This document shows positions 24,094 to 46,037 of a DNA stretch of 49,323 nucleotides, one piece after another; positions within the stretch are counted from its first letter, which is position 1, and each line of letters starts with the position of its first letter. Source of the stretch: Pseudobdellovibrionaceae bacterium (GTDB lineage Bacteria; Bdellovibrionota; Bdellovibrionia; Bdellovibrionales; UBA1609); NCBI GenBank assembly GCA_015163855.1, contig JAAOIK010000027.1, forward strand, positions 1-49,323. The letters are read 5' to 3'. The position numbers and the translations under genes were made by a program. The notes under the pieces were generated by a model. It was not told where the DNA came from. It saw only the letters and a program-made list of their open reading frames with translations, and ran no database searches.

Positions 24094-24831
24094 TTAAAAT
24101 ATATAGCCTGTAGATAGCATAACTTGTGTGCTAACAATGTTATGTTGACTGTTATACCAAGTTTCTTTGTATAATTTACTTTGCAATTCCATTCTACCCG
24201 TCCATTGTTTTGTTAGCCAAAAGCTAGAACCCACACTAAACGAAAATAAAGCTGATGGCTTATGCTTTAAAACAATTTGGCCTATCCCAGAAGTTAAAAA
24301 TAAATCGAAATACATAATTTTATTAAATAAATTAAATTTTCCGTAACTTGGGTACCACGAAGCTGTAGCGGTATAAGAAAATTTAGGAAAATCTAAATCA
24401 GGAATAAAAGCATAGTCGGGATCATTTTTTAATTTACTTTCTCCCTCTTTAATAACTTGCACACCTGCAGGAGACAGCTTATTGGAAAAATAAGAATAGT
24501 CTAAACCCACAGACCATTTAGAGTTTATATACACTTTATAAAGCATAGTTACTGCAGTAGTCTTAAAGTATGCAGGGCCTGATGTTGAGTAAGCAAGACC
24601 CGTAAGCATTTCTTGCTTTTTTCCACGAGAGAAAAACCGATTTTGTATAACCGATACCTCCGAATCCGTGCTAGTTTTTTGAATGTAAGGAACTAAAAAT
24701 GTATTTTCCCCTAAATTGTGTAAATCCTCTAATAACGATGGCTTTGCTTCTGCCGCCAACACTAATGAATTAGTAAATAATAAAAGTAGTCCTGCAAATA
24801 AAGGGAAAAAGTATAATTTAATTATTTTCAT
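24094..24831 (-). CDS. outer-membrane beta-barrel protein of the envelope cluster
   Basis: A signal peptide (hydrophobic about 8-26, cleavage after VLAAEA) precedes a 220-residue region of alternating polar/hydrophobic strands (SVGLDYSYFSN, FSYTATASWYP, YFDLFLTSGIGQIVL, SALFSFSVGSSFWL, STQVMLSTGYIF). It ends in an aromatic residue, as outer-membrane barrels do for BAM recognition. It resembles the barrel proteins found with gliding-type clusters in Myxococcota and Bdellovibrionota. Its ATG overlaps the stop codon of the lipoprotein gene upstream (TAATG), so translation is coupled. Probably the outer-membrane element that meets the AgmX-like linker. Confidence 0.8.
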   Translation of the reverse strand: MKIIKLYFFPLFAGLLLLFTNSLVLAAEAKPSLLEDLHNLGENTFLVPYIQKTSTDSEVSVIQNRFFSRGKKQEMLTGLAYSTSGPAYFKTTAVTMLYKVYINSKWSVGLDYSYFSNKLSPAGVQVIKEGESKLKNDPDYAFIPDLDFPKFSYTATASWYPSYGKFNLFNKIMYFDLFLTSGIGQIVLKHKPSALFSFSVGSSFWLTKQWTGRMELQSKLYKETWYNSQHNIVSTQVMLSTGYIF

Positions 24832-32732: not shown

Positions 32733-32831
32733 GTTTTCGTAGATGAACTTACGATGAATTCATTAAAGTAAATTGTCTGTGGTAAATAGCTATCGATGTT
32801 TTTTTGCTTTGAGGTTGTTGTTTATGTTTAT

Positions 32832-32908
32832 GGCGGTTGTAGCTCAGTTGGTAGAGCGCCGGATTGTGATTCCGGTTGTCGCGGGTTCAATCCCCGTCAA
32901 TCGCCCCA
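32832..32908 (+). tRNA. tRNA-His (anticodon GTG), CCA encoded
   Basis: A full cloverleaf is visible. The extra 5' G(-1) at 32832 faces C73, the His identity pair. The acceptor stem GCGGTTG pairs with CAATCGC, the D-loop contains AGTTGGTAGA, the anticodon stem CCGGA/TCCGG closes the loop TTGTGAT with anticodon GTG, and the T-arm contains GGTTCAATC. The terminal CCA is in the DNA. Confidence 0.97.
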
Positions 32909-32991
32909 ATTTTTTCGCTTCAAATTTTTTCAACAGTTAAAAAACTTCCATAAACTCTTACATCGTACGGACACTAATTATTTTTTTTATT

Positions 32992-33103
32992 CTGGAATGC
33001 CCCTGTCAATAATCACATCTTTATCGAAGGCACCACTGGCAATTTGCTGGAATGCCCCCATCAATAATCACATCTTTATCAAAGGCACCACTGGCAAATT
33101 TTG
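32992..33103 (-). repeat. tandem 55/56-bp duplication at the 3' end of the leucine-rich-repeat gene
   Basis: Two adjacent near-identical units (32992-33046 and 33047-33103) differ at a few bases and by one lost base. The unit nearer the gene encodes KFASGAFDKDVIIDGGIP in frame. In the second unit the missing T shifts the frame, giving NCQWCLR and a stop. Read in the shifted frame, the second unit still encodes ASGAFDKDVIIDRGIPE followed by a stop, so the protein probably once ended there. Confidence 0.85.
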
Positions 33104-34193
33104 TTGACTCTGGTAATTTAACATACTTAATATTATTATTTTCAAACGCACCTTCCAAAATTTTAGTTACACTATTCGGAATAGTAACAGATGTTAGGTT
33201 GTTATTTTCAAATACACTATAGTCTATCTTTGTGACACTGTTTGGAATAGTAACAGATGTCAGATTGTTATTGTAAAATGCATGATTACCAATCTCTGTG
33301 ACACTGTTTGGAATAACAACAGATGTCAGATTGTTATTTGCAAAGGCACTGCCAAAAATCTTTGTGACACTGTTTGGAATAGTAACAGATGTCAGATTGT
33401 TAGTGTGAAATGCACTGTGACCAATCGTTTCGAGGCTGTTTGAAATAACAACAGATGTTAATTTATTATTTTCAAAGGCATTGGAGCCAATCCTTGTAAC
33501 ACTATTTGGAATAGTAACAGATGTTAATTTATTGTATTCAAATGCTTCGCTGCCAATCCTTGTAACACTATTTGGAATAGTAACAGATGTTAATTTATTG
33601 TATTCAAATGCTCCGTTGCCAATCCTTGTAACACTGTTTGGAATAGTAACAGATGTCAGGTTGTTCTTTTTAAATGCAAAACCCCCAATTACTATGACAC
33701 TGTTTGGAATAACAACAGATGTCAGATTGTTATTCTCAAATGCAAAGTCCCCAATTATTCTGACACTATTTGGAATAACAACAGATGTCAGATTGTTATT
33801 TGCAAAGGCCCAGACATTAATCTGTGTGATACTGTTTGAAATAACAACAGATGTTAAGTCATTATCTGCAAATGCAGAGTTACCAATCACTGTAACACTG
33901 TTTGGAATAGTAACAGATGTTAGATTGTTATTTTTAAATGCTAGGTGATCAATATATGTCACGCTACTAGGAATAACAACAGATGTTATACCCTTGTCAT
34001 AAAACGAGTACTCCCATAACCCAGTTACACCTTTTGGAATAACAACAGATTCTAGATCACAAGTATAGTTCGTAATTATTGTTGATTTTTTTTCAAAACA
34101 TTCTGATCGAGTCGTGTTTGTATTTGCTAATACATTAGTGCATATAAATAAACTGATCGGTAATAATATATATTTAACAAGTGTTTTGTTCAT
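33021..34193 (-). CDS. BspA-like leucine-rich-repeat exported protein
   Basis: A signal peptide (hydrophobic about 9-22, cleavage near VLA-NT) is followed by about 15 LRR_5 (BspA/TpLRR-type) units of 23 residues with the core LTSVxIPNSVTxIGxxAF. Units 2-13 are close to identical. Such proteins are surface or secreted binding proteins and often interact with other cells or matrix. The C-terminus ends in a frameshifted copy of its last repeat. Cys residues occur only in a short N-terminal pair region and in the frameshifted tail. The SD AGAGG lies 6 nt before the ATG. It lies between tRNA-His and ahpF, pointing away from ahpF. Confidence 0.88.
   Translation of the reverse strand: MNKTLVKYILLPISLFICTNVLANTNTTRSECFEKKSTIITNYTCDLESVVIPKGVTGLWEYSFYDKGITSVVIPSSVTYIDHLAFKNNNLTSVTIPNSVTVIGNSAFADNDLTSVVISNSITQINVWAFANNNLTSVVIPNSVRIIGDFAFENNNLTSVVIPNSVIVIGGFAFKKNNLTSVTIPNSVTRIGNGAFEYNKLTSVTIPNSVTRIGSEAFEYNKLTSVTIPNSVTRIGSNAFENNKLTSVVISNSLETIGHSAFHTNNLTSVTIPNSVTKIFGSAFANNNLTSVVIPNSVTEIGNHAFYNNNLTSVTIPNSVTKIDYSVFENNNLTSVTIPNSVTKILEGAFENNNIKYVKLPESTKFASGAFDKDVIIDGGIPANCQWCLR
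33130..33990 (-). repeat. array of near-identical 69-bp repeats coding for leucine-rich repeats
   Basis: About 12-13 in-frame units of 69 bp share long identical stretches (such as ggaatagtaacagatgt on the plus strand). The high DNA identity, including synonymous positions, indicates recent expansion or ongoing gene conversion between units, so copy number may vary between strains. Confidence 0.9.
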
Positions 34194-43521: not shown

Positions 43522-45030
43522 TTATTTAGTAACTAATAATTGAAGAAACTTTCTTCTCCAATTTAATGCTTTTAAAGTATCTTTAGCTTTGCCATTAAAC
43601 ATCCAAACTACTAATAATTGTTCTTTTTTTCCCGCTTGAACAAAACCCGCAAAAGTAACAACAGAATTTAACAAACCCGTTTTTCCTCTAATAACTTGAT
43701 TAGACTGGCTAAAATTATAGCTTTTTAAAGTTCCATCTATGCCCGCTATAGAAAAAGCACTTAATAGCTCGGGGGCGTAAGTGTGATTTTTTATATATTT
43801 TAATAAGCTTAAAATAGTATTAGCCTTTAATTGATTTTTTCTAGATAAACCCGAAGGGTTAAAAAAATAAGCACTTTGTTTAGGCTTTCCTATTTTTTGA
43901 AAAATATCTTTTATTCTAAGATTATAATTATAAAATTGTGAACTTAACATATCTGCAATATAATTATTAGAAAACTTTAACATATCTGCAATTATTAAAG
44001 GAAGAGGCTTACTTTTTATTTCTGCTAGTTTTTTATACTCCCATAAGTCTATGGTATTAAAATTTTTAATTTTAACCTTGCCTTTAACAACAATTCCTCG
44101 CTTTTTTAAAAAAACACGCAAATAACTACCCAACCAACGCTCGGGGTTAATTATGCTTTTATAAGCTACAAAAGCTTTAGCCTTAATACCAATTTTCCCC
44201 TTAATAATTAGTATATTTTTTTTCTTTTCAACAAGTCTTTTAATTTGAATATTAGCTTTGCTACCAGCTACACTTTGCACATTATTTCGGATTTCTAAAA
44301 ATGGAGACTTATAGGGGTCAATAATAATGTTCGCTTTTTTTCCAATGGTCGATGCCCTTACCTTAACAGTAACACTATTCCAATTAAAAGAACTTGGTGC
44401 AATTAATGCCTCATAAGCTCTATCTCCCTTAGGAGGTTTATTGGCATTTTGAATTTTCGATTTAAATGATTTTTTAAAGATAACAAGGTCGCCCTTAATT
44501 ACAGAAATATTAGAGTGAGAAAAAACTCTAACTAAATTCCACATGGATTCAGAAACAAAAACAGGGTCTCCTCCCCCATTAAAATAAAGACTTCCGTTTA
44601 GTTGCTTGTTTTTAATTTTACTTTGCTTTTTTACCAACAAAGAACTGGTAAATTTTTTTTTAATTCCCCACTCCTCCACTGCAGCCAAAGCAATAACTAT
44701 TTTATTTAAAGAGGCTGGAACAAAATAAGTATTTCCGTTATGACTTAACTTAAAGCCTTTAATGGGGTTGTGTGCCTTGATAGAAAAAGATAACTGAGCA
44801 GGATTAATTTTATTTTTCTTTATAAATTTTTTAATTTTTTGATTTAAACTGTTTTTACTCCAATAAAAACCAGGATTTGGTAAATTAATAAATTCTGCGC
44901 GAGCTATAATAGTGCTGAATAAAAAAAATAAAATTAAAGTGGTACGGATAGGGAGACTTGAACTCCCATGGTGTTGCCACCGGTGGATTTTGAATCCACT
45001 ACGTCTACCAATTCCGCCATATCCGCACAT
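43522..45030 (-). CDS. dacB: D-alanyl-D-alanine carboxypeptidase/endopeptidase (PBP4), start upstream of an embedded tRNA
   Basis: This periplasmic penicillin-binding protein has all three motifs: SLNK (Ser107, Lys110), SNN in KFSNNYIADML and KTG in RGKTGLLNSV. A hydrophobic signal core (about 31-43, TLILFFLFSTIIA) ends with ARA-EF. No ATG, GTG or TTG lies in frame between the tRNA-Leu gene and residue 100 of this numbering. The only conventional start is the ATG at 45030, which overlaps the stop codon of the upstream gene (TAATG) and forces codons 2-30 to be read through the tRNA sequence. The signal h-region begins exactly where the tRNA ends. The true start may instead be a rare ATC or ATT codon. 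It trims or cuts peptidoglycan cross-links. Confidence 0.85.
   Translation of the reverse strand: MCGYGGIGRRSGFKIHRWQHHGSSSLPIRTTLILFFLFSTIIARAEFINLPNPGFYWSKNSLNQKIKKFIKKNKINPAQLSFSIKAHNPIKGFKLSHNGNTYFVPASLNKIVIALAAVEEWGIKKKFTSSLLVKKQSKIKNKQLNGSLYFNGGGDPVFVSESMWNLVRVFSHSNISVIKGDLVIFKKSFKSKIQNANKPPKGDRAYEALIAPSSFNWNSVTVKVRASTIGKKANIIIDPYKSPFLEIRNNVQSVAGSKANIQIKRLVEKKKNILIIKGKIGIKAKAFVAYKSIINPERWLGSYLRVFLKKRGIVVKGKVKIKNFNTIDLWEYKKLAEIKSKPLPLIIADMLKFSNNYIADMLSSQFYNYNLRIKDIFQKIGKPKQSAYFFNPSGLSRKNQLKANTILSLLKYIKNHTYAPELLSAFSIAGIDGTLKSYNFSQSNQVIRGKTGLLNSVVTFAGFVQAGKKEQLLVVWMFNGKAKDTLKALNWRRKFLQLLVTK
44940..45026 (-). tRNA. tRNA-Leu (anticodon CAA), CCA encoded
   Basis: A complete class II tRNA is visible on the minus strand. 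The acceptor GCGGATA pairs with TATCCGT (G1-T72 wobble), and the D-arm TGGCGGAATTGGTAGACG is typical of tRNA-Leu. The anticodon stem GTGGA/TCCAC closes the loop TTCAAAA with anticodon CAA. A long variable arm follows (CGGTGGCAACACCATG), then the T-arm GGGAG-TTCAAGT-CTCCC, discriminator A73 and CCA. It begins 4 nt after the stop codon of the PpiD-like gene and lies wholly inside the dacB reading frame. Confidence 0.97.
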
Positions 45031-46037
45031 TATAATTTTATTAAATTTTTATTAGTATAAATGTTTAAATTTTTACTATAGTTTTGAAACCAAGATTGCA
45101 TAGCCACCTGTTGCCTTTGACGAGCAAACCACTGACTTATAATACCAAAAGAAGCTTTGTTTTTTGCTTTGGCTTTTTTTACCGCTTTTACATAAATTAA
45201 ATAATACGCTCCTTTGTGAAAAGCTAGTGTATTTACAAATTGTCCCGGTTTTGTTTTTAAAATATTTGTATAAACCATTTTATTTTGCCCCAATATAGGT
45301 AAATAAGAGCTTTGCAAAGAAACCTTGGCAGATTTCACAGGCTTTAGTTTATTCTTTTTTTTCCAGCTATTAATACTAGCAACCTTGGTTGTAGTTAATA
45401 ATTGTTTTATTTTTTTAATTTTTTTATCAAAAGCTTTTTTTAAAGCTTTTTTGTTTTTACTAGGCTTTTTTAGTTCAAAAAAATCTAAGTGAACTTCGGC
45501 ATTTAATACAGAATTTTTTAATTTTTCCTCTAGGTCTACCATTTGAGTAGCTTGCTCTATCCATCCAACAAAGTCTTGATAAACAATGGATTTTTCTATT
45601 TGTGACTCAAAGCTGTCTGGAGTTTGCCCAATCGACTTTAGCAAAGACTCATAACGCGTACGCCTAAACTGACCATTCTCTGAAAAAGCCGGTGTAGAAA
45701 CCACTTGGTCAATAATGGCCTCAGAAGCAATATAAAACCTCGAATTTGCTAAAGAGACATAAATCACATTTAGCTGTAACAACTCATTTAATAGCTGTTG
45801 TTTTAGGCGTGCCTCTAATAATCTCCGTTCCTTAGCCGTTTTGCCTCTAGGCGCTGACTGTCTTCTACTAGCTGAACGAACCATCTTATCAAAACTAAGC
45901 GTACTGATCACTTCATTATTAACCGACAAAGCCACTCCTCGCCCACGATCTCCTCCAAAAAAGGAAGGCGTTAAGCCAAAAAAGGCAAAGGCTAAAACAA
46001 TAATACCAGAAATAAGCATAAAAATAATTTTTTTCAT
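45030..46037 (-). CDS. SurA/PpiD N-terminal-domain periplasmic protein without PPIase domain
   Basis: This 335-residue protein has one N-terminal membrane helix (about 4-21) and a SurA_N-type chaperone domain (VNNEVISTLSFDKMVRSASR, LKQQLLNELLQLNVIYVSLANS, IDQVVSTPAFSENGQFRRTRYESLLKSIGQTPDSFE), as in PpiD. The family's peptidyl-prolyl isomerase (parvulin) domain between the helical parts is absent or unrecognisable; a Lys-rich C-terminal region replaces it. It is probably a periplasmic chaperone anchored in the inner membrane. Its stop codon overlaps the ATG of the dacB frame, and tRNA-Leu begins 4 nt after the stop. Confidence 0.82.
   Translation of the reverse strand: MKKIIFMLISGIIVLAFAFFGLTPSFFGGDRGRGVALSVNNEVISTLSFDKMVRSASRRQSAPRGKTAKERRLLEARLKQQLLNELLQLNVIYVSLANSRFYIASEAIIDQVVSTPAFSENGQFRRTRYESLLKSIGQTPDSFESQIEKSIVYQDFVGWIEQATQMVDLEEKLKNSVLNAEVHLDFFELKKPSKNKKALKKAFDKKIKKIKQLLTTTKVASINSWKKKNKLKPVKSAKVSLQSSYLPILGQNKMVYTNILKTKPGQFVNTLAFHKGAYYLIYVKAVKKAKAKNKASFGIISQWFARQRQQVAMQSWFQNYSKNLNIYTNKNLIKL

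Follow-up and report, generated by a model that had tools for sequence, protein, structure and literature searches.

How is a protein gene read when a complete tRNA gene stands between its only canonical start codon and the enzyme that it encodes? This question is raised by dacB on a contig of a Pseudobdellovibrionaceae bacterium, a relative of Bdellovibrio with a small genome (JAAOIK010000027.1); the whole stretch of DNA that was analysed, 49,323 nucleotides, is referred to here as the window. The answer that we consider probable is that a functional tRNA-Leu(CAA) lies within the dacB 5' coding region, that translation begins at an ATG coupled to the upstream ppiD-like gene, that the tRNA encodes the n-region of the DacB signal peptide, and that cleavage by RNase P would remove the start codon. 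The features concerned are listed in Table 1.

Table 1. Features of the region spanning the ppiD-like gene, tRNA-Leu(CAA) and dacB, with positions in the window.
Feature	Position	Strand	Basis
ppiD-like gene (SurA_N_3), directly upstream of dacB	45030..46037	-	Pfam; ORF list
ppiD stop codon TAA, last A is the first base of the dacB ATG	45030..45032	-	sequence
dacB ATG, sole canonical in-frame start, 4 nt before the first base of the tRNA	45028..45030	-	sequence; kept in congener
tRNA-Leu(CAA), 87 nt, CCA encoded, dacB codons 2-31	44940..45026	-	ARAGORN; Rfam RF00005, 54.4 bits
dacB signal-peptide region, R29 to ~E46	44893..44946	-	sequence, alignment, substitutions; judged by eye
dacB, peptidase S13/PBP4, 502 aa	43522..45030	-	Peptidase_S13 PF02113, E 1.5e-56

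The preliminary description of this DNA had reported a complete tRNA-Leu(CAA) in the dacB frame and a frame that stays open through it into the signal-peptide core. ARAGORN and Rfam agree on the tRNA and the stop-free frame is seen in the sequence, with codon 31 of dacB made up of the end of the tRNA and the first two bases behind it. The predicted tRNA fold is stable (-36.7 kcal/mol, z -3.8). All 87 positions of the tRNA are identical in the second species of the genus, and the copy at dacB is the only tRNA-Leu(CAA) found in either genome. Together, these two results indicate that it is a working tRNA and rule out a tRNA pseudogene. At dacB, the reading frame of a conserved protein gene contains a complete functional tRNA. 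The unusual G1-U72 pair was considered as a brake on RNase P and dropped, since two tRNA-Met genes share it. The A/T-rich flanks of the tRNA, AAAAUUA (45039-45033) and UAAUUUU (44936-44930), are predicted to form base pairs beyond the acceptor stem, closing a loop that would hold the ATG; in A/T-rich sequence such pairing may arise by chance.

The comparison within the genus covers two genomes, both draft assemblies. The congener, Bdellovibrionales bacterium TC_Bin3 (JAAOIH010000004.1), is the only other genome available for the genus. DacB is 75% and PpiD 70% identical between the two species, and the gene order pyrE-dacB-tRNA-ppiD-mreC-mreD is common to both. In the congener the ATG likewise lies 4 nt before the tRNA, and the ppiD stop and the dacB ATG are 3 nt apart (TAACCTATG, TAA CCT ATG), compared with the overlapping TAATG of the window. 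Behind the tRNA, the signal region of the two species has diverged at 56%, 25% and 50% of codon positions 1, 2 and 3, respectively, without an indel. No in-frame canonical start codon was found in the congener between the tRNA and the mature enzyme, the next one being a TTG inside the mature enzyme. The arrangement is present in both genomes available for the genus and in no other family member examined. A sequencing error hiding or destroying a start codon, which the preliminary description had named as a way in which its reading might fail, is very unlikely because the second species has the same ATG, the same frame and no alternative start.

The dacB gene itself has the features of a maintained enzyme gene. 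In the alignment, the three motifs that characterise Peptidase S13 (DacB/PBP4), SxxK, SxN and KTG, are intact in both species as SLNK (107-110), SNN (354-356) and KTG (450-452). Over 456 codons, the proportions of differences between the species are 0.175, 0.112 and 0.368 at codon positions 1, 2 and 3, a substitution pattern that rules out a dacB pseudogene and indicates that purifying selection has acted on the gene in both species after they separated. A gene under purifying selection with its motifs intact must start somewhere, and the sole canonical choice is the ATG at 45030: between this codon and mature DacB the window contains no in-frame ATG, GTG or TTG, and the earlier statement to this effect extends to both species. 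The case for ATG 45030 is an argument by elimination. When random sites were examined, 6% of the trials had an ATG no more than six open codons upstream. The conservation of the ATGT in front of the tRNA was rejected as proof of a start, since 13 of 23 pairs of orthologous tRNAs from the two genomes have identical bases at the last four positions before the tRNA; it counts against the ATG start that these bases could have been retained as mere tRNA flank. Selection at the codon level is invisible in the tRNA part of the gene because the sequence is held fixed as a tRNA.

On the minus strand, a single base separates the ATG (45030-45028) from the tRNA (from 45026). The TAATG overlap of the ppiD stop and the dacB start at 45032-45028 is as previously described, and a second such overlap is present at 24831 in the window. 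As a conserved mode of coupling, the TAATG finds no support: the congener does not share the overlap but keeps the ATG at -4. A Shine-Dalgarno motif is absent at the dacB ATG, as it is at many genes in the window. In support of this ATG, it is the sole canonical start and stands at the same place in both species, with the ppiD stop 0-3 nt away, a distance that suits reinitiation without a Shine-Dalgarno motif. No promoter-like sites above chance were found within ppiD just before the tRNA, which makes co-transcription from upstream of ppiD likely.

Under the explanation that we favour, ppiD, the tRNA and dacB would most likely form one transcript. While terminating at the stop codon, a ribosome ending ppiD would sit over the 5' side of the acceptor stem, and it would restart at the overlapping or nearly abutting ATG without the help of a Shine-Dalgarno motif. 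The tRNA would be read as ~29 residues with many Arg, Lys and His among them, so that the product would begin with MCGYGGIGRRSGFKIHRWQHHGSSSLPIRT, followed by the hydrophobic core; IHRWQHHGSSSLPIR is an example of a peptide expected with a start at 45030. The last Arg of the signal region is encoded within the tRNA, the hydrophobic stretch TLILFFLFSTIIARA lies directly behind the tRNA-encoded codons, and plausible cleavage sites (ARA/E and TNA/Q) follow the core when the sequence is read by eye. A signal-like N terminus is present in DacB of all relatives. The tRNA-encoded stretch would form the basic n-region of a long signal peptide; the whole of this peptide would be cleaved off by signal peptidase, with no change to the mature enzyme. 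The T-rich trailer would be read as Leu and Phe codons, and the tRNA and its trailer may in this way have yielded a working signal peptide. T-rich sequence is common behind the tRNAs of the window genome. Further points count against this explanation: an n-region of 30 residues is long, and the stable fold predicted for the tRNA would hinder translation.

If the tRNA were to fold first, RNase P would cut at 45026, the body of dacB would be left without a start codon, and only tRNA-Leu would be obtained. One RNA molecule would therefore probably yield either the mature tRNA or the enzyme, not both. This corresponds to the earlier proposal that the tRNA belongs to a translated leader and that its maturation and PBP4 synthesis exclude each other, which survives the comparison with the congener as the best-supported reading, with partial support overall. 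All starts that keep the basic residues, including an ATC at codon 28, lie within or before the tRNA and so need RNA that is uncut by RNase P; the exclusion per transcript would hold in every reading save that of a near-cognate start behind the tRNA. A further step, which we regard as a tentative and rather doubtful one, is that the locus acts as a switch, in which the arrival of ribosomes from ppiD at the ATG before the RNase P cut decides between tRNA-Leu(CAA) and the cell-wall enzyme for each transcript. With such a switch, the amount of enzyme would depend on the rate of translation, on the folding of the tRNA and on the capacity of RNase P. That tRNA processing regulates the output of the cell-wall enzyme is speculation.

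Near-cognate start codons offer another way of translating dacB, and an ATC or ATT start behind the tRNA had been suggested as the alternative in the preliminary description. Up to codon 46, the near-cognate codons in frame are ATT 7, ATC 15 and ATC 28, all three within the tRNA of either species; ATT 33 and ATT 41, behind the tRNA in the window only; ATT 31 in the congener only; and ATA 42 in both. Starts at codons 41 or 42 would leave no signal peptide. A start at ATT 33 in the window and at ATT 31 in the congener, on a nearly leaderless mRNA behind the processed tRNA, would allow one transcript to give both tRNA and enzyme. Each species does have a near-cognate codon in this stretch, and short leaders are tolerated in the genus, where other genes start 6-30 nt behind tRNAs, but these genes use ATG and ATT starts are very rare. 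Moreover, the codon is not at the same position in the two species and the resulting signal peptide would have no basic n-region, all of which makes this start unlikely. The ATC form of the suggestion is likewise weak, as the only nearby ATC lies inside the acceptor stem.

This ATC at codon 28 (44949-44947) could itself serve as the start, with GGGAG in the T-arm as a weak Shine-Dalgarno motif. The product, MRTTLILFFLFSTIIARA, would have a textbook signal peptide, and the codon is common to both species, although it is fixed in any case as part of the tRNA. Initiation at ATC is extremely rare, and the GGAG stands 13 nt from the codon and is tied up in T-stem pairing; the RNA would also have to be both uncut and unfolded, and we consider a start here improbable.

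The tRNA might also have arrived at dacB by chance in a reduced genome, with dacB silent or decaying and the open frame a coincidence. The window genome is indeed reduced (1.24 Mb), the arrangement is restricted to one genus, and an open frame through tRNA-Leu is common. Of 369 genomes of the phylum scanned with the 29 translated tRNA residues, 94 gave a match, and tRNA-Leu in the dacB-type frame is commonly stop-free across the phylum, for which reason the open frame was rejected as proof of coding. Outside the genus, the open frames around the 97 matches have a median length of 55 aa and a maximum of 197 aa, compared with 508 and 503 aa for the frames through tRNA-Leu in this genus. What is out of the ordinary is that the tRNA leads into a conserved enzyme of ~470 aa that has no start of its own downstream. 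This enzyme gene is intact, and purifying selection appears to have maintained it in both species after they diverged, which argues that the protein is made somehow and renders a coincidence quite improbable. Lastly, initiation at an ATG of another frame inside the tRNA, followed by a -1 shift into dacB just behind it, is hardly credible: ATGs in that tRNA frame are conserved and T-rich sequence lies downstream, but in the window the frame hits a TAA after one codon, before the T-run, the congener differs, and no conserved slippery heptamer was seen.

A tRNA within the coding region of dacB, as in the reading that we favour, sets this genus apart from its relatives. Among the 29 tRNAs examined in the window genome and the 25 in the congener, only tRNA-Leu(CAA) at dacB has a nearby upstream start that leads through it into a long gene. 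In the 28 other members of the family and order that were examined, dacB has no tRNA nearby and a canonical start is available. Relatives with an ordinary dacB start, which had been named as evidence that might overturn the preliminary description, thus exist but do not contradict it, as they lack the tRNA. The tRNA-Leu(CAA) genes of relatives sit elsewhere with other neighbours, and an ancestral position directly beside ppiD or dacB was not found among them. A contig scan for dacB relatives returned only the congener record, the remaining matches being to the tRNA-derived stretch. Judging from these comparisons, the tRNA at dacB is a genus-specific change in a reduced genome. If the favoured reading is true, a single stretch of DNA would double as tRNA gene and signal-peptide coding sequence, ribosome and RNase P would compete for one RNA, and the locus would suggest how RNA and protein genes can become joined during genome reduction at a site that tolerates additional residues, namely a cleaved signal peptide. 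For gene finders, the masking of tRNAs strips dacB of its start.

In bacterial mixed tRNA-mRNA operons, such as the tufB tRNA operon of E. coli, translation of the protein gene begins at a start codon of its own downstream of the tRNA. The dacB locus is similar in that tRNA and mRNA would share one transcript cut by RNase P. It differs both from these operons and from the other tRNA-gene junctions of the genus, as only dacB is without its own start behind the tRNA (no ATG, GTG or TTG in either species). Several genes of the genus begin with an ordinary ATG 6-30 nt behind the CCA of a tRNA, namely behind tRNA-Ser(GCU), tRNA-Arg(ACG) and tRNA-Val(GAC), the last being followed by an isocitrate-dehydrogenase-like gene, and tRNA-mRNA read-through transcripts may be usual in the genus.

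The closest known system is selC (tRNA-Sec) of Alphaproteobacteria, which is nested within selB at its 3' end and was presented as the first bacterial tRNA found inside a protein ORF (Mukai 2021, PMC8124441). Processing of the tRNA and protein synthesis were proposed to be mutually exclusive there too, as a hypothesis from computational evidence (PMC8124441). The two cases share a whole tRNA in frame in a bacterial ORF, stop/start coupling with a neighbouring ORF, the proposed exclusion and a computational basis. In selB the tRNA forms a C-terminal extension and its processing gives a nonstop mRNA, whereas in dacB the tRNA follows the start codon, near the beginning of the gene, and processing would remove the start. 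The dacB case further involves tRNA-Leu(CAA) rather than tRNA-Sec and a different gene, its tRNA and protein are not functionally linked, and the extension falls in a putative cleaved signal peptide. In the open-access literature we found no 5'-nested bacterial tRNA and no precedent closer than selC/selB, although an example may exist outside it; to judge from the papers found, tRNA-Leu(CAA) would be the first bacterial tRNA between a start codon and its gene. Animal mitochondria have tRNA genes in or overlapping protein genes, an example cited in PMC8124441 being tRNA-Lys in cox1 of Armadillidium. There, as at dacB, a compact genome uses a single sequence both as tRNA and as coding sequence; the setting is mitochondrial, the genes are others and the tRNA is inside the protein body.

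The dacB start reads AUGUG in both species, like the ambiguous AUGUG start sites of E. coli (Kohl 2022, PMC9841429). At dacB, the overlapping GUG frame meets a TAG after 7 codons inside the tRNA, making a second long product unlikely. Elsewhere in the window, a tRNA-His (32833-32908) lies inside a 103-aa open frame (32796-33107) that overlaps the repeat gene on the opposite strand and is probably spurious. This repeat gene, at positions 33021-34193, encodes a protein of repeated 'NNLTSVTIPNSVTxIG' units, which resembles BspA-type leucine-rich repeats.
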